A stretch of 64,000 nucleotides of DNA. Source: Lentisphaera araneosa HTCC2155 (GTDB lineage: Bacteria > Verrucomicrobiota > Lentisphaeria > Lentisphaerales > Lentisphaeraceae). Made by a program: the position numbers and the translations under genes. The stretch covers positions 124,001 to 188,000 of the forward strand of contig NZ_ABCK01000009.1 of assembly GCF_000170755.1 (NCBI RefSeq), given 5' to 3'. Numbering within the stretch: position 1 is the stretch's first letter; each line of letters starts with the position of its first letter. A model generated the notes under the pieces. The model was not told the origin of the DNA. It was given only the letters and a program-made list of their open reading frames with translations, and ran no database searches. This document shows, piece after piece, positions 15,366-62,347 of this stretch.

Positions 15366-15394
15366 AACCGCTGGGTTTTCCCAGCGGTTTTTTT
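15366..15394 (+). terminator. Terminator of the alpha ribosomal operon
   Basis: A perfect 10-bp stem, AACCGCTGGG paired with CCCAGCGGTT around TTTT, is followed by a run of T. The next gene's ATG lies only a few bases beyond the T run. Confidence 0.92.
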
Positions 15395-15398
15395 GTCT

Positions 15399-16013
15399 AT
15401 GGAAACCGTCATTATTATTCTCAAAGTGGAAGCCGGCAAGGGTAGAGATTACCTCGTCTGGGCTTTATCCCCCGATATGGGGCGATTAGTCTTTATCTTT
15501 AAAAGAAGTAAAGACTTTTATGAGCCGGGCTTGTTTCGGGTCATGAAGGTTCGCTTAGAGAAGCAGCTTAATAAAACCACTTTACAGTTAGATGAAAATA
15601 GCCTTTATAAAGGTGAAGTCATTGAGATTATTCACAACTATGATCATCTTTCTGAATCATACGAAAATTTCAATAAGGCTTGTGAGTTGTCCCAGACGAT
15701 TCTTAAGATCACTAGCCAGAATCACGCATGTCCCTTAGCCTTTAAAACGGTTCTGCAGGCAATGGAAGACTTTTTGAACGATGGGGAATACTTAGCGTGG
15801 CGAGTATGTTTGTTTATTAACTTCCTCAAAGATTTTGGGGGGCTTCCTGAATTAAGTCATTTTGCCCCTCTACAGCAACAGTTTTTAATAAGATTGGAGG
15901 AGTCAGCTGACTCGAGAAAATCTTTACCTAAGATCTCAAAGCAGAAATGGCTTGAGTTTGAGTTTTGGGCTCTTCAGTTACTCGATGAAAGCGGTGTGAG
16001 AGTTAATATTTAA
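15399..16013 (+). CDS. Possible RecO-like DNA repair protein
   Basis: A 204-residue protein from the ATG at 15399. The first ~75 residues look like a small beta-barrel with the RecO-like pattern (IIILKVEAGKGRDYLVWALS, then GRLVFIFKR). The rest is helical and resembles the RecO core (ACPLAFKTVLQAMEDFL, WRVCLFINFLKDFGGLPE). The zinc-binding cysteines of many RecO proteins are missing. It is therefore a tentative call based on overall pattern. The start codon is about five bases after the ribosomal operon terminator, with no visible ribosome-binding site, so translation would depend on readthrough, a leaderless transcript or a later start. Confidence 0.4.
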   Translation: METVIIILKVEAGKGRDYLVWALSPDMGRLVFIFKRSKDFYEPGLFRVMKVRLEKQLNKTTLQLDENSLYKGEVIEIIHNYDHLSESYENFNKACELSQTILKITSQNHACPLAFKTVLQAMEDFLNDGEYLAWRVCLFINFLKDFGGLPELSHFAPLQQQFLIRLEESADSRKSLPKISKQKWLEFEFWALQLLDESGVRVNI

Positions 16014-16055: not shown

Positions 16056-16158
16056 TTGTAAATAAGTGTCTCGTAGTTAGTTTATTAATAGGTCGTTGTC
16101 TGTGTATCCTCCTTTCCTCCATACCTCCCCTCCATTTACACAGGCAACGATCTTTTTT
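16056..16158 (+). ncRNA. Candidate small RNA 1 with four CCUCC loop motifs
   Basis: A promoter-like pair TTGTAA (16056-16061) and TAGTTT (16078-16083), 16 bases apart, places a start at about 16090. From there a 16-bp stem forms between 16091-16106 and 16137-16152 with two G:U pairs, followed by TTTTTT. The 30-base loop is almost pure pyrimidine and contains CCTCC four times (at 16108, 16116, 16124 and 16129), in the same sense as the predicted RNA. CCUCC is the core of the anti-Shine-Dalgarno sequence of 16S rRNA. The element could simply be a terminator of the preceding gene, but a second copy with the same plan lies 170 bases away. Confidence 0.6.
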
Positions 16159-16224
16159 AGTGCCCCAAAGTATACAAGTCTGTACTGTATTAATTTTTAT
16201 TTAAGAAAAAGTTATAAGACCGGC

Positions 16225-16335
16225 TTGTTAAATTTAAGTTAAGAGCCATAGTTTATATACAGACTGTTACTTATGCTTACCTCCTATCCTCCATACCTCC
16301 TATCCTCCCCCTAGCATAAGTAACGGTCTTTTTTA
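16225..16335 (+). ncRNA. Candidate small RNA 2 with four CCUCC loop motifs
   Basis: TTGTTA (16225-16230) and TAGTTT (16249-16254), 18 bases apart, predict a start near 16261. A 17-bp stem forms between 16261-16277 and 16313-16329 with one G:U pair, followed by a T run. The ~35-base loop holds CCTCC four times, spaced by TAT, ATA and TAT, giving an 8-base period. The region after the stem (TCTTTTTTATTTCCCC) matches the tail of candidate RNA 1 (TCTTTTTTAGTGCCCC). The stems differ in sequence while loop motif, promoter box and tail are kept, which argues for selection on an RNA rather than on a simple terminator. Confidence 0.62.
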
Positions 16336-16407: not shown

Positions 16408-18027
16408 ATGTGTCGAGTAATATCAGGTCCTCAAGTGAGGAGGGTAGAGGATGAATATTTTTCCGTACAAGTTGTTCTTGAAGAAGATGTGGATCTTCAT
16501 TTATGTATATATCACAAGGGAGAACTCTTAAAAAGTCATTGCGATGTTCGCAAAGTACCCTTGTCCTCAAAGCTTTTTTTTTACATCTTAAAGTCTGAAG
16601 TGGATTTGTGTAGCGATGAGCTTTACTCTTATGATGTCATCCATGGACAGGTCAGTATAATAAAAGACTTATCTTTAGGCTTGGTTGAAGAGAGTGAATT
16701 GCCCTCATTTACTTTTGGTAGCGAACGAATACTTACTGGTTCCTGTCGGCAACTTTCTTCAGAACAAGATGATTGTTTGCCGAAAATGTTAGATAGGTTT
16801 AATGATGATAAGCTCAGACCACAGGTTCTCATTCTCACGGGAGATCAGGTTTACGCAGATGATTTATGCTCAGACTTATTGGATAAGATTAAAGAAATTT
16901 GTCAAACATACGACTTGCCCACAACTGCCTTAGATCTGAAAGATCGAAAAGATTTTTGTCAATCTATTGGTTTAACGAGTATGAAGTCGAGTCATCACCT
17001 TTTGTCATTGGGTGAATTTATAGCTTTGTACCTTTTATCTTGGAGTGAAGAATTATGGGAAAAAGATTCTTCAATTGTTGATCTAAGGGATCTAAAAAAG
17101 GTTCGAAAGCTTTTTGCAAATGTCCCTACTTATATGCAGATGGATGATCACGATGTGAGCGACGATCTAAAAATCAATGAATATTGGCTAGAAGGACTTA
17201 AGGAGCAGGGCCAACGAGTGGTAGCAAATGCCTATGCAACGGGGTATTTATTTCAAATTATGGGTAATTATAAACGCTATAGAACTTATGATGAATTGAT
17301 CGTGGCTTATCTTAAGGAAGAAGTGCATGACTGCAGTATGGGAAGACGCATTATCAATGACGCTGATTGGTCCAATGAGCTTATACTTGGAAACAAAGCT
17401 TTTGTGTTTTTTGATACACGAAATCATCGCTTAGGTGGTTCAGATTCTCAGTCTCCAGCGGGTTTAATTATAGAGAGTAAGCTTAAAAAACAATTAAGTA
17501 AGTGTGTAAGTGATGAGTTGGTTATCATTAGTCCATCGCCAGTTTATGGTTATGAACCTATCGAGTCCTTGCAAGAACGTTTGGCATTTCTTCCTCAATC
17601 GGTGAGTTTAATTGATCGAGAAGGTTGGCATGCACCTCCGAAAGGTAGTGAAGAAGCCAAATCTATGGATGTTTTAGAGGCCTTGCTCTCTATGGCAAGT
17701 GCAAAGCGCATTGTGATTATCTCCGGTGATGTGCATTACTCATTCGTTAGAAACGTAAATCTTTGTAATAAGCAAGTGACTCAAGTGGTCTCGAGTTCAC
17801 TAAAGAATAAACCACCTCTAACTTTACTAGCACGCCTTGGCTTCAATTGGTATAATAAATATTCTAAAAATACTCAATACTTAAGTAGTGACCAGGGACA
17901 AAAAATTATACATCATTCTAATTACTGTTTTCTTATATTAGAGAGTGAGATTGAGATATGCATGTATAGTCGAGGGATAGAACATAAATTTAAGCTCGAT
18001 AATGTGACCAATGACTTGGATAGATAA
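16408..18027 (+). CDS. PhoD-like metallophosphatase
   Basis: A 539-residue protein with the PhoD-type calcineurin-like phosphatase core: a metal-binding GSCRQ near residue 113, ILTGDQVYADD near 147, MDDHDVSDD near 250, FFDTRNHRLGGSD near 337 and ISGDVHYSF near 440. No signal peptide is seen, so unlike secreted PhoD it is probably cytoplasmic. The final segment is an accessory domain. Likely a phosphodiesterase or phosphatase; substrate unknown. It overlaps the next gene by 17 bases and therefore starts an operon with the YgfZ-TPR protein and a sigma factor. Confidence 0.75.
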   Translation: MCRVISGPQVRRVEDEYFSVQVVLEEDVDLHLCIYHKGELLKSHCDVRKVPLSSKLFFYILKSEVDLCSDELYSYDVIHGQVSIIKDLSLGLVEESELPSFTFGSERILTGSCRQLSSEQDDCLPKMLDRFNDDKLRPQVLILTGDQVYADDLCSDLLDKIKEICQTYDLPTTALDLKDRKDFCQSIGLTSMKSSHHLLSLGEFIALYLLSWSEELWEKDSSIVDLRDLKKVRKLFANVPTYMQMDDHDVSDDLKINEYWLEGLKEQGQRVVANAYATGYLFQIMGNYKRYRTYDELIVAYLKEEVHDCSMGRRIINDADWSNELILGNKAFVFFDTRNHRLGGSDSQSPAGLIIESKLKKQLSKCVSDELVIISPSPVYGYEPIESLQERLAFLPQSVSLIDREGWHAPPKGSEEAKSMDVLEALLSMASAKRIVIISGDVHYSFVRNVNLCNKQVTQVVSSSLKNKPPLTLLARLGFNWYNKYSKNTQYLSSDQGQKIIHHSNYCFLILESEIEICMYSRGIEHKFKLDNVTNDLDR

Positions 18028-19677: not shown

Positions 19678-20502
19678 ATGTATTTTATTGATGAAAGTGT
19701 ACGAAGCTATATGAAGAATATCGCAGAATTACCTTTGATCAGTAGAGATGATGAAGTCGAGTTAGCAGAATTAATCAACAATGGTTCCGAGTCCGCTCGC
19801 GAACAACTGATTGTGGGAAATTTACGCTTAGTCGTCAAAATTGCCCATGATTTTAAATCCCTCGGTGTACCCTTAGCAGATTTGATTTCAGAAGGCAACA
19901 TTGGCTTGATGAAAGCGGTAGAAAAGTTCAAGCCAGGTATGGGAGCCAAATTTTCTTCTTATGGAGCGTGGTGGATAAAACAAGCGATTCGCCGTTGTGT
20001 GGCTGAACAGAGTCGAGTCATTAGGATTCCTGTTCAATCAGCGGTTAAGATGTATAAGATTCAGCGTGTAGCCATGCATTTGGCGGAAGAGCTGGGACGC
20101 GTGCCTAGTGAGAAAGAAATTGCGGAAGCCGCAGATATGTCTCAAAGATCTGTTCACAACTTAAAAGTAGCCGCGACTTCGCCGACAATTTCTTTGAGTA
20201 CAAGCTTAAAGGATGGTGAAGATGGTGTTCTGGAAGATATGCTTCCTGACCTTATGGCGAAAATGCCTGGGGGAGAAATGGATGATAGAGATGTAAAGAG
20301 CCTTCTTCAAGATTGCGTTGATCAGCATTTAACAGAACGCGAAAAACTCATTATCAATATGCGTTATGGTTTAAATGGTGGTGAACAGCATACTCTAGAC
20401 GAGATTAGTGAATTAATAGGTCGTACTCGTGAGCGAGTTAGACAGATTCAGCATAAAGCATTGAAGAAATTATCTCGACACTTGGATGAGATAAAGAAAT
20501 AA
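19678..20502 (+). CDS. RNA polymerase sigma-70 family factor
   Basis: A 274-residue sigma factor with region 1.2 (SVRSYMKNIAELPLI), region 2 (NLRLVVKIAHDF, LISEGNIGLMKAVEKF, FSSYGAWWIKQAIRR), region 3 (IRIPVQSAVKMYK) and region 4 (LTEREKLIINMRYGL, TLDEISELIGRTRERVRQIQ). It lacks the long N-terminal region of a primary RpoD, so it is an alternative group 2 or RpoH-like factor. It is the last gene of an operon with the PhoD-like and YgfZ-TPR genes and ends two bases from the convergent TetR gene. No anti-sigma gene is visible. Confidence 0.88.
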   Translation: MYFIDESVRSYMKNIAELPLISRDDEVELAELINNGSESAREQLIVGNLRLVVKIAHDFKSLGVPLADLISEGNIGLMKAVEKFKPGMGAKFSSYGAWWIKQAIRRCVAEQSRVIRIPVQSAVKMYKIQRVAMHLAEELGRVPSEKEIAEAADMSQRSVHNLKVAATSPTISLSTSLKDGEDGVLEDMLPDLMAKMPGGEMDDRDVKSLLQDCVDQHLTEREKLIINMRYGLNGGEQHTLDEISELIGRTRERVRQIQHKALKKLSRHLDEIKK

Positions 20503-57518: not shown

Positions 57519-59407
57519 GTGCGCCTGAGAGCGCACACAATCAGTGAGGTGAAAGTCCTCATCAACAAAGGCTGATTATGTTGTAGTCGAACCTAACTGC
57601 GTTGTCGTGAGGCGGGGTGGAGAGCAAGGCAAGGCGAAGCAGCAGTCCGTAGGATGACGAACTCGATTCGGCTTTATAGTACTAGCGAGCCTGCGATCGC
57701 GTGGCGAAGCTTGGAACGGAATGAAAATAATAATAATAAGGAGTAATTCTGAAGATCCTCTATGCTGAATATCAGCGAGTAGCAAAGCAGTAGAGGAAGT
57801 CTATAGAGTGGTTGGAGACGGAATGCGGTGAAGGTTGTGTGACGTTAATCAGGGAGATCTGCATGTGCAGTGCAATAAGGCATGCAGAAGTCAGAGCTCT
57901 CATAGTAGCGAAGAAGGCGGTGAAAGCTGTTAGAGCGAAGGAGAGTAGGAAGATGAAACTGAGAAGAAAAGAATGAAGGAGTGAAACAATTGTCAGAGAT
58001 GACTAAACATACATGGGAGCACTTAGGGCGCACCGAAGAAATTCGTGCGTGGGCCTCGACTTCAGTCTGGACAGATCAGATGCTGGGAACTCTTGAAACA
58101 AGAGTTGAAGGTAAGAAATGGTATAGCTTAATAGATAAAGTAGCGCGAGAAGTAAACCTTATAGAAGCTTGGGAATCTGTTCGTGCAAACGGCGGGAGTC
58201 ACGGGGTGGATATGGTGAGCTTGGATCGTTACGAATCAGAGCTAGAGCACAATACAAAGCAATTGATGAAGCAACTGCAGGCAGGGACTTACCTGCCACA
58301 ATGCGTTCGCAGGGTAGAGATCCCAAAAGCAGATGGTAAAACGCGTGCTTTGGGAATACCGACCGTGCGCGATAGAGTTGTTCAGACTGCGCTCAAGAAT
58401 GTTATTGAACCGATATATGATGTGGATTTTTCTACACAAAGTTTTGGTTTTCGTCCGCAACGTGGATGTAAAGATGCGCTTCGGCGTGTTCATCATCTAC
58501 TTACGCAGGGACAGCTCTACGTCATTGATGCGGATATTCAAAGTTACTTTGATATGATACCGCACGACAAACTCATGGAACGAGTCAAAGAGAAAATAAG
58601 CGATGGCAAGACCCTAGATCTTATAGAAGCTTTCCTCAAAGCAGGAATATTTGATGGGATCAAGGAGTGGGATCCCGAGAAAGGGACTCCGCAAGGAGGC
58701 GTAATTAGCCCACTACTTGCCAATATTTACCTCAATGAATTCGACCACAGGATGACAGCGGCTGGCTTTGAAATCGTAAGGTATGCGGATGACTTTCTGG
58801 TGATGTGTGATAATGCGAAATCGGCTAAGCGGGGCTTGCGCAAAATCAAGCGTTGGATGAAGGCTCATGGTCTGAACCTCCATCCCGATAAAACCCGAAT
58901 TGCCGACATGAATCAGCAGGATGAGTACTTTGAATTTCTAGGTTATCACTTTGAGCGCTCGAAAAGAACGGGCAGGATAAATAGGTGGCCAAGAAAACAG
59001 AGTATGGCTAAAATGAAAGACACTGTGCGAAAGCATACGAGGCGTTGTAACTGGCAATCGGTAGAAGAAATCATTAAAGGTCTCAGGCCTAGTCTCAAAG
59101 GTTGGTATGAGTACTTCAAACACTCAAATCGTTGGGCTATGCTCGAAGTTGATGCTTTCTTTCGTCGAAGGTTACGAAGTATTATCGCTAAGTACAATCG
59201 TAAGAAAGGTTCACATCGCTTTATAGATAACAGGAAATATACCAAGAAATACTTTGCAGAGCTAGGGTTCTTTTCACTGGAAGAGGCTTGGCTATTGGAA
59301 TCTCAGTCTCTTCGGAGTAAGCATTGACCGGAGAGCCGTATGCGGGAGATCCGCACGTACGGTTCGGAAGGAGGGGAGGCTCCGCAAGGAGCTTTCCCTA
59401 CCCTTAT
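57519..59407 (+). mobile_element. Group II intron with encoded maturase
   Basis: The 5' end is GTGCGCC (57519) and the likely 3' end is CCCTTAT (59407), ~1.89 kb. Domain V is the 34-base hairpin at 59333-59366 (GAGCCGTATGCGG...CGTACGGTTCG) with the AGC catalytic triad. Domain VI follows at about 59369-59398 (GGGGAGGCTCC, GCAA loop, GGAGC). Domains I-III occupy 57519-57980. The joined exons would read TGCCTGCGGTC + CCAGC. The boundaries are inferred from motifs, not from an empty-site comparison. Confidence 0.88.
57981..59327 (+). CDS. ltrA: Group II intron reverse transcriptase/maturase
   Basis: A 448-residue protein with a GTG start and GGAG seven bases upstream. Reverse-transcriptase motifs are GIPTVRDRVVQTAL, DADIQSYFDMIPHD, GTPQGGVISPLLANIYL and RYADDFLVM (YADD catalytic). 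A maturase/thumb region follows, ending in a YFAELGFFSLEEAWL block. There is no C-terminal HNH endonuclease. The stop is five bases before domain V, the usual layout of a compact group II intron. It mobilises and splices its own intron. Confidence 0.95.
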   Translation: MKQLSEMTKHTWEHLGRTEEIRAWASTSVWTDQMLGTLETRVEGKKWYSLIDKVAREVNLIEAWESVRANGGSHGVDMVSLDRYESELEHNTKQLMKQLQAGTYLPQCVRRVEIPKADGKTRALGIPTVRDRVVQTALKNVIEPIYDVDFSTQSFGFRPQRGCKDALRRVHHLLTQGQLYVIDADIQSYFDMIPHDKLMERVKEKISDGKTLDLIEAFLKAGIFDGIKEWDPEKGTPQGGVISPLLANIYLNEFDHRMTAAGFEIVRYADDFLVMCDNAKSAKRGLRKIKRWMKAHGLNLHPDKTRIADMNQQDEYFEFLGYHFERSKRTGRINRWPRKQSMAKMKDTVRKHTRRCNWQSVEEIIKGLRPSLKGWYEYFKHSNRWAMLEVDAFFRRRLRSIIAKYNRKKGSHRFIDNRKYTKKYFAELGFFSLEEAWLLESQSLRSKH

Positions 59408-60513: not shown

Positions 60514-62347
60514 TGGGAAGGCTCCTTTCGATGAGTCGTACAATTTTTTGACTGCGCTGAATCAATTCATCTAATTGTATATTCGACTGATGGGTTTCCG
60601 TAAAACGGGGGATCTTTAAATGATCGAGTAGGGACCGCAATTCATCAAAATCGTTTTGCGAAATGTATTGCTTTAAGGTCTCTTGTAAATCCTGCGCGAT
60701 GATGGCGCCGGCAGTTAATTGCAGGCGATCGGCAAAGTACGTTTGTACTTGTTCATCGAGTTCATGAATTGATTTGGCACGGTTTTGTGATTTGAAATTG
60801 CGGAAAGCGCGAATAGCCAAGGCGCGTTTAGGATCACTGACTTTAAGTCGCGAGTAGGCACTCAATTGATAATAGATTAGAAAGAGGCCAGGGGGAATAA
60901 GGAAAGCCCAGATCCAGTCAGAAACGAGTGGGTCACTCTTGAGTAAGTTTGCCGAGAGATTGTTGTGACGAATGCCCTCGGAGTTTTCTTCTAAATGATT
61001 CTTGAGTTTGTTGGGACCGCTGACGATGGCATCAAATGCCGTGAGCTCGCTCGCTGCGGTAACTTTAATGGCAATGGGCTCACTCTTGGCGACGCCATAA
61101 GTTTGTCTTTCTGGATCAAAGTAAGGAACGCGAATCGAAGGGATAACTTTCACATCGATATCGATGGGACGCAGGGTGCGTTGAAATTTTGTGCCATCTT
61201 CGCGCAATTCGCCAATACGCTTGTTGGGCAGAAGCTTAAAGCTTTGGGTAAAAGGAAGTTGTTGGTTGAGGACGGGGATCTCTAAGATTTCGGGGAAGCT
61301 ATGTTTTGATAAGTCGATATCCAATTTAATTGGTGAGCCTGATTCGAGCACGACTTTATCGGCACTTACTTTGAGATCAACTTTTCCCACGAGGCCATAA
61401 AAGTCATTGGGGCGCCCCTGCGTTGGGAGTTCTTTTACCCTTACAGTGAGTTTAGGTGAGAGGCACATGAGCTTCTTCACATTGCTATTATTCACTTCGG
61501 TGTCGAAGAAGTTGTTATTGAAAAAGCTCGGATAAGTGGGACGCCAGCGCTTTTGTTGTTGCGTTGTTTTTAATTTAGTTGGGAAGACACTAAGCAAGCG
61601 GGCATCGCCGAGCTCAAAAGAACCTGGGCTTAAGGGGACAATGACGCGTTGGAAGCGCAGGAACTCATATTCTTTTTCTTCGATGGTGGTGGAGCCACGA
61701 AGAGCAATGATGCGGTTTTGGGAAACGGGAAGTCCAATAGCATTTTTGTCGTTGGGGTTGGGCTCATGGCGACTATTGAGCACGCGGAAGGAAGCGTTCT
61801 GTAAGATGGGAACTTCGAGATCAACGGCTTTGAAGGCGTAAAGGGGCAGGGAGGTGTACCAAGTGACGGTGGCGAGGATGGGCTCGCCTACATACACGTC
61901 GGTTTTCGATAATTGAACGTCGAGCTTAATATCTTTGCTGATTTCGGGGCGCTTAACTTCGATGGCAAGCTCTTGGGTTTCGTAAGTCTTGTCAGCGACT
62001 TTAATGAATTGGGGGGGGATGACCATTTGGCCTGATTTCACAGGGACGAGGGCGAGGCGAATGTGGTAAGCCTTCTCCTTTTGAACCTGCAAGGGCTTTT
62101 GGCTGACGATTGTGTGTTGAAAGCCCGGGAACTCACTAGCTTCGAAGGGAGTGACGGTGTCGCTGCCCATGAGCATGATATCGAGAAAGAATTTCTCACC
62201 TAAAAAATAGGTATTTGTCGAGCTCGTGGCATGTACTTTGATGGGGTCGCTTTCTGCCGTTTTGTTGGGGTCGTTTTCAACTTGTGTTTCTTCTGCCCAC
62301 GTTAGGCTTGAGAAAAGTAGTAAAACGACGATAAATAAATTTTTCAT
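60506..62347 (-). CDS. batD: BatD-like exported protein (oxygen-tolerance domain)
   Basis: A 613-residue protein with a signal peptide (LFIVVLLLFSSLTWA), a long beta-rich periplasmic region typical of BatD (VHATSSTNTYFLGEKFFLDI, FRVLNSRHEPN, VGKVDLKVSADKVVLESG) and one membrane segment near residue 485 (WIWAFLIPPGLFLIYYQL). A cytosolic tail follows. It overlaps the upstream fusion by one base and batE by eight, an operon with coupled translation. Confidence 0.88.
   Translation of the reverse strand: MKNLFIVVLLLFSSLTWAEETQVENDPNKTAESDPIKVHATSSTNTYFLGEKFFLDIMLMGSDTVTPFEASEFPGFQHTIVSQKPLQVQKEKAYHIRLALVPVKSGQMVIPPQFIKVADKTYETQELAIEVKRPEISKDIKLDVQLSKTDVYVGEPILATVTWYTSLPLYAFKAVDLEVPILQNASFRVLNSRHEPNPNDKNAIGLPVSQNRIIALRGSTTIEEKEYEFLRFQRVIVPLSPGSFELGDARLLSVFPTKLKTTQQQKRWRPTYPSFFNNNFFDTEVNNSNVKKLMCLSPKLTVRVKELPTQGRPNDFYGLVGKVDLKVSADKVVLESGSPIKLDIDLSKHSFPEILEIPVLNQQLPFTQSFKLLPNKRIGELREDGTKFQRTLRPIDIDVKVIPSIRVPYFDPERQTYGVAKSEPIAIKVTAASELTAFDAIVSGPNKLKNHLEENSEGIRHNNLSANLLKSDPLVSDWIWAFLIPPGLFLIYYQLSAYSRLKVSDPKRALAIRAFRNFKSQNRAKSIHELDEQVQTYFADRLQLTAGAIIAQDLQETLKQYISQNDFDELRSLLDHLKIPRFTETHQSNIQLDELIQRSQKIVRLIERSLPNA

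Follow-up and report, generated by a model that had tools for sequence, protein, structure and literature searches.

The closest described systems are small RNAs (sRNAs) in which anti-Shine-Dalgarno or C-rich sequence is presented to mRNAs. In the alpha-r14/cuckoo RNAs an anti-Shine-Dalgarno (anti-SD) loop motif is conserved, while the stems that carry it vary freely (PMC3927594, PMC10746234), and the Sinorhizobium alpha-r14 member NfeR1 silences mRNAs by start-region pairing (PMC10746234). CcsR is tied to a DUF1127 protein and to an RpoHI/RpoHII promoter (PMC10253847). Listeria has several copies of an sRNA, LhrC1-5, whose three redundant C-rich (UCCC) sites attach to the SD region of a target (PMC4132741). 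In Helicobacter pylori, the C/U-rich terminator loop of RepG pairs with a G-rich stretch of an mRNA leader, and that stem-loop by itself suffices (PMC8295292).

Here we describe a family of ten short elements in three Lentisphaera genomes, of which two, A and B, lie in tandem in the window, the 64,000-nucleotide stretch of Lentisphaera araneosa HTCC2155 DNA that was analysed. We know of no sRNA of this type from Lentisphaerota, and none was found in the papers and Rfam searched. We would class the elements as a new family, restricted to the genus, within a functional kind that is already known; their single-loop layout is unusual.

Architecture of the tandem elements

Elements A (16056-16158) and B (16225-16334) sit in the 394 bases that separate the gene for a 206-aa protein from that for a PhoD-like phosphatase; the elements and both genes are on the + strand. 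The features of the locus are as follows.

15393-16013, + strand: upstream neighbour, 206-aa protein with no Pfam match; neighbour in all three species, outside the RNA genes
16056-16083, + strand: element A promoter, -35 TTGTAA at 16056-16061, 16-nt spacer, -10 TAGTTT at 16078-16083
16090-16158, + strand: element A predicted small RNA, 69 nt, stem-loop plus U-run, from the fold, the covariance model and the stem pairs
16107-16136, + strand: element A loop, UCCUCCUUUCCUCCAUACCUCCCCUCCAUU, 30 nt, 30/30 columns identical across three species
16153-16158, + strand: element A U-run, T6, 6/6 columns conserved in three species
16225-16254, + strand: element B promoter, -35 TTGTTA at 16225-16230, 18-nt spacer, -10 TAGTTT at 16249-16254
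16261-16334, + strand: element B predicted small RNA, 74 nt, stem-loop plus U-run, from the fold and the covariance model
16278-16312, + strand: element B loop, UACCUCCUAUCCUCCAUACCUCCUAUCCUCCCCCU, 35 nt, 31/35 columns identical in three species
16408-18027, + strand: gene on the downstream side, for a PhoD-like phosphatase by a weak Pfam match; conserved as neighbour in the three species, outside the RNA genes

Both stems are 16 bp long (16091-16106/16137-16152 in A, 16262-16277/16313-16328 in B), and a T6 run follows B at 16329-16334 as it does A. The predicted folds are strong (-23.6 kcal/mol, z -7.25 for A; -21.9 kcal/mol, z -10.38 for B), with 0/200 shuffles as good in either case, and each G-free loop is wholly open and fully unpaired on its one long stem. 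An earlier, sequence-only reading had placed tandem hairpins here, each with a TTG-type -35 and a TAGTTT -10 at 16-18 bases, four copies of CCTCC in the loop and a T run after the stem, and all of this was borne out, the boxes being conserved in the orthologues as well. The spacing of about 8 bases that it gave for CCTCC describes B (8, 8, 8), but in A the intervals are 8, 8 and then 5. The A-NNN-CCCC tail that it proposed is not a family feature: the orthologues of A have TTTTTTTTGCGCTC and TTTTTTTTGCGACC, CCCC is absent from A in two species, and only B and C retain a C-rich tract 3' of the U-run. Tracts of up to C10-C12 directly after the U-runs of B and C were observed (including L. araneosa contig C5, 50589-50659), and this sequence likely lies beyond the transcript end.

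The promoter type, TTG...TANNNT, is conserved. In both A and B the -35 is identical at 6/6 columns and the -10 at 5/6 in the three species, so that the boxes are conserved at 83-100% while the spacers drift (38% in A). Spacing between the boxes is 16-19 bases; in A and B, about 7 bases separate the end of the -10 from the stem. Neither of these two promoters was picked up by a generic sigma-70 scan. A 274-aa sigma-70-family factor is encoded close to the RNA genes, at 19678-20502 of the window. Every element has a U-run 3' of its stem, and in A the two together likely form an intrinsic terminator.

Distribution and conservation of the family

A pattern search for three CCTCC repeats in the L. 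araneosa genome (6,023,180 bases, 81 contigs) revealed a third copy, C, elsewhere, and the same set was found in two more Lentisphaera genomes, the genus being sampled by three species with one genome each. A and B in tandem and C are present in every genome, and L. marina has a further element, D. The two elements first described are thus present, but the count is three in the genome and ten in the genus. A covariance model recovered these three elements from every genome at E values of 1e-15 to 1e-22 (98.9 bits for element A and 85.3 bits for element B) and D with an E value of 9e-5. The stem of D consists of 15 plus 2 pairs, its loop core is CCTCCATACCTCCCCTCC, and its promoter, TTGTTG-16-TATGTT, is of the same type. 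Across the family, CCUCC occurs three or four times per loop and stems measure 13-17 bp. Exact matches to CCTCCATACCTCC in the three genomes fall within family hairpins in 10/10 cases, and single-mismatch sites occur outside them. Copy C is flanked by secG and an araC-type gene in two of the species, whereas in the third its neighbour is exbD, and the block conserved across these differing surroundings consists of promoter plus hairpin only.

When 388 genomes of the phylum were searched with the covariance model, all strong hits fell within Lentisphaera. Of the weak matches in other genera, those inspected proved to be ordinary terminators or to pair by chance, and they lacked the promoter and CCUCC loop. 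CCTCC-WWW-CCTCC-WWW-CCTCC had one occurrence outside the genus, a sequence match. An Algoriphagus MAG with the exact 21-mer was judged a chance match, as neither hairpin nor promoter is there. In Rfam, no family reached its gathering score and no bacterial sRNA matched at E values up to 5. As far as these genomes allow it to be read, the family is restricted to the genus Lentisphaera, with three copies per genome and four in L. marina.

The stems were compared in an alignment of nine elements with 15 stem pairs and 126 cells. All 126 cells hold standard pairs, both sides have changed in 8/15 pairs, and the covariation score was 0.656, versus 0.370 in shuffled alignments and at most 0.181 with partners slid. 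Part of the signal comes from comparing paralogues, the stems of which may have separated at an early stage. Among the orthologues of A, all pairs are retained across species and one G-C to A-U swap is clean; the orthologues of B show several one-sided G-U changes. Loops are far more constrained than their surroundings, with identical columns across species amounting to 100% in A, 89% (31/35) in B and 100% (30/30) in C, versus 14-41% in the intergenic flanks. The A loop equals that of C letter for letter, so that one 30-nt loop sits on differing stems, and its UUU/AUA spacers are exactly conserved, beyond what CCUCC by itself would require. The sequence-only reading had noted that the stems differ while loop motif and promoter agree, a description that extends to the ten-element family with its invariant A/C loops. 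It had also named homologues with covarying stems as the check on its proposal, and these were found; loops varying freely among relatives, which it took as the contrary outcome, are the opposite of what the alignments show. The elements are very probably discrete, selected small-RNA genes.

Proposed anti-Shine-Dalgarno function and candidate targets

The 3' end of the 16S genes is GGATCACCTCCTTTTT, and the A and C loops contain CCUCCUUU, an octamer shared with this tail; because the 16S 3' end has this sequence, CCUCCUUU in the loops equals the anti-SD, in agreement with the first assignment of CCUCC as the anti-SD core. Pairing of the loop with SD sequences is plausible on sequence grounds. 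A and B are probably autonomous, multicopy, trans-acting sRNAs with a terminator loop that occludes SD sites, for which we infer transcription, termination, pairing, repression and targets. Each element would be transcribed from its own sigma-70-like promoter. The RNA would start at the stem base and end at the U-run, giving a predicted length of about 65-75 nt, so that the whole RNA would be one terminator-type hairpin. The stem would keep the pyrimidine-rich, G-free loop open, presenting CCUCC three or four times, and the loop would most likely pair without Hfq to the SD purines of target mRNAs, blocking ribosome binding and lowering translation. Redundancy would come from the repeated sites within a loop and from the multiple copies within a genome. 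Hfq was not detected in the L. araneosa genome by a search whose control recovered it in 5/14 known genomes.

Two features of multicopy anti-SD sRNAs, a functional kind and not a lineage, are seen in these elements: a promoter and a terminator of their own at a discrete intergenic site, as judged from the conserved promoter boxes, hairpins and U-runs, and a conserved unpaired loop holding the anti-SD core. Like alpha-r14/cuckoo and CcsR (CcsR1-4 of Rhodobacter), they combine an anti-SD loop on variable stems with several motifs per RNA or cluster. Alpha-r14, however, has three hairpins with one CCUCCUCCC each, whereas in the Lentisphaera RNAs a single hairpin carries as many as four CCUCC, spaced by 8 nt. 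The several-hairpin CCUCCUCCC motif of cuckoo/alpha-r14/CcsR is thus not matched, and the Lentisphaera RNAs belong to another phylum and have no Rfam match. DUF1127 (PF06568) was not found in the L. araneosa genome, and the neighbours of the RNA genes are unrelated. The likeness to cuckoo and CcsR that had been suggested from sequence therefore holds as analogy only, since Rfam match and DUF1127 are lacking and the motif differs. LhrC resembles the Lentisphaera RNAs in being multicopy with redundant C-rich sites, but distributes those sites over two stem-loops and a single-stranded linker, whereas here all sites lie in one loop. RepG shares the C/U-rich terminator loop in anatomy only; it has homopolymeric G-repeat targets and a further stem-loop, while the Lentisphaera RNA is a single hairpin in several copies. 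The best reading, by analogy, is that the Lentisphaera RNAs would work like alpha-r14/cuckoo, LhrC and RepG, with no demonstrated relatedness to any of these. NfeR1 of the alpha-r14 group, LhrC and RepG are precedents that such a mode of action is workable.

Candidate targets were sought in 864 kb, about 14% of the L. araneosa genome, with crude start calls. Shine-Dalgarno use is moderate in this sample: of the predicted start sites, 33% have AGGA, 16% have GGAG and 0.9% have GGAGG. The full GGAGG precedes 5/585 genes versus a Markov expectation of about 20, and because such SDs are rare, few mRNAs could pair with the whole CCUCC plus flank. A complement of at least 6 nt to the A/C loop occurs at 19.7% of start sites versus 6.4% of coding windows. 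Since shuffled C/U-rich loops do nearly as well (41/200 match starts as well as the real A/C loop) and the excess is expected of any anti-SD, this complementarity is no proof of targeting. Two strong candidates, a eutC-like gene that matches B over 9 nt and the gene with the best energy, which encodes a 173-aa membrane protein, were rejected as conserved targets, neither having a match in the two sister species. Sulfatase genes carry a 6-nt match to the A/C loop in 18/50 cases versus 90/497 others, but the 16S tail itself gives the same excess, which points to better SDs or start calls and not to a sulfatase regulon. Sulfatase-like genes make up about 50/547 in sampled contigs C2 to C5, many with AAAGGA-type ribosome binding sites. 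On contig C2, three gene copies near 61557, 103764 and 118512 have identical start regions and N-termini (MIVFILIACLYLMIQFSQHSLLKKF) and may belong to a mobile element that is repeated. In the window, a group II intron was seen at 57981-59407, where a 448-aa ORF resembling reverse transcriptases precedes a match to Rfam RF00029 at 59331-59407 (+).

Alternative explanations and significance

Among the alternatives, an unlikely one is that the loop is a decoy titrating one or more RNA-binding proteins, such as Rho, a cold-shock-type protein or another pyrimidine binder. Rho prefers unstructured YC-rich RNA, and CsrB regulates CsrA by titration. An open, G-free, C-rich loop with an 8-nt period would suit such a role, as would spacers conserved like CCUCC itself, an entire loop identical on differing stems, and redundancy in copy number, which is typical for decoys. 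No extended mRNA complement exists either: a search for sites complementary to the A loop over 21 nt, allowing as many as 3 mismatches, returned only the family hairpins themselves. Yet the CCUCC pentamer and the CCUCCUUU octamer are the anti-SD of the ribosome, which a YC binder would not demand.

More doubtful still is a global form of anti-SD mimicry, in which abundant loops would compete with 30S subunits for strong SDs, tune initiation genome-wide and have driven the loss of GGAGG from Lentisphaera ribosome binding sites. GGAGG was found in 10/870 sampled Lentisphaera genes; within GGAG genes it accounts for 10/140 versus 17/108 in two sister-genus genomes (p = 0.04). Avoidance relative to sister genera is only suggestive (p = 0.12 overall, 0.04 within GGAG genes).

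It is very unlikely that the hairpins are mere terminators or cis elements (the end of the 206-aa gene, a phosphatase leader, the secG 3' end), even though stem plus U-run looks terminator-like and element A lies about 77 nt downstream of a stop codon. A terminator needs no invariant 30-nt loop, tandem A and B would be redundant, and a conserved -35/-10 set precedes the stem in each copy. C, moreover, is retained beside unrelated neighbours, sits downstream of its same-strand neighbour and is the leader of no gene.

A dispersed selfish repeat (REP-like or an integration hairpin) with no regulatory role would explain several similar hairpins per genome and the one copy differently placed between species, but we consider it highly improbable, given that there are just 3-4 copies, that A and B are syntenic in three species, that promoters are retained and stems have diverged with compensation, and that no family member was found in the viral contigs, phage and plasmid records searched. 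The idea that the opposite strand is functional, as a GGA-rich hairpin for CsrA/RsmE-type proteins, draws on the GGAGG repeats in the loop complement and is nearly excluded: promoter and U-run are both on the + strand, and the + strand is taken as the transcribed one because seven stems hold 14 G-U and 0 A-C pairs on it and its folds are always more stable, by 4-10 kcal/mol, than those of the - strand. A short ORF opposite A and C was rejected by reading and is interrupted in B.

Read as anti-SD sRNAs, the elements would have a compact design, in which a single hairpin is the entire RNA, both regulator and terminator, with up to four anti-SD modules in its loop. The family would then be evidence for multicopy anti-SD loops as a recurrent, convergent solution. 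Tests would be simple, since the loci are small, number three and belong to a marine bacterium that is in culture, and its genome, having no detectable Hfq and few full SDs, would allow Hfq-free anti-SD regulation to be tested cleanly beyond the phyla studied so far.
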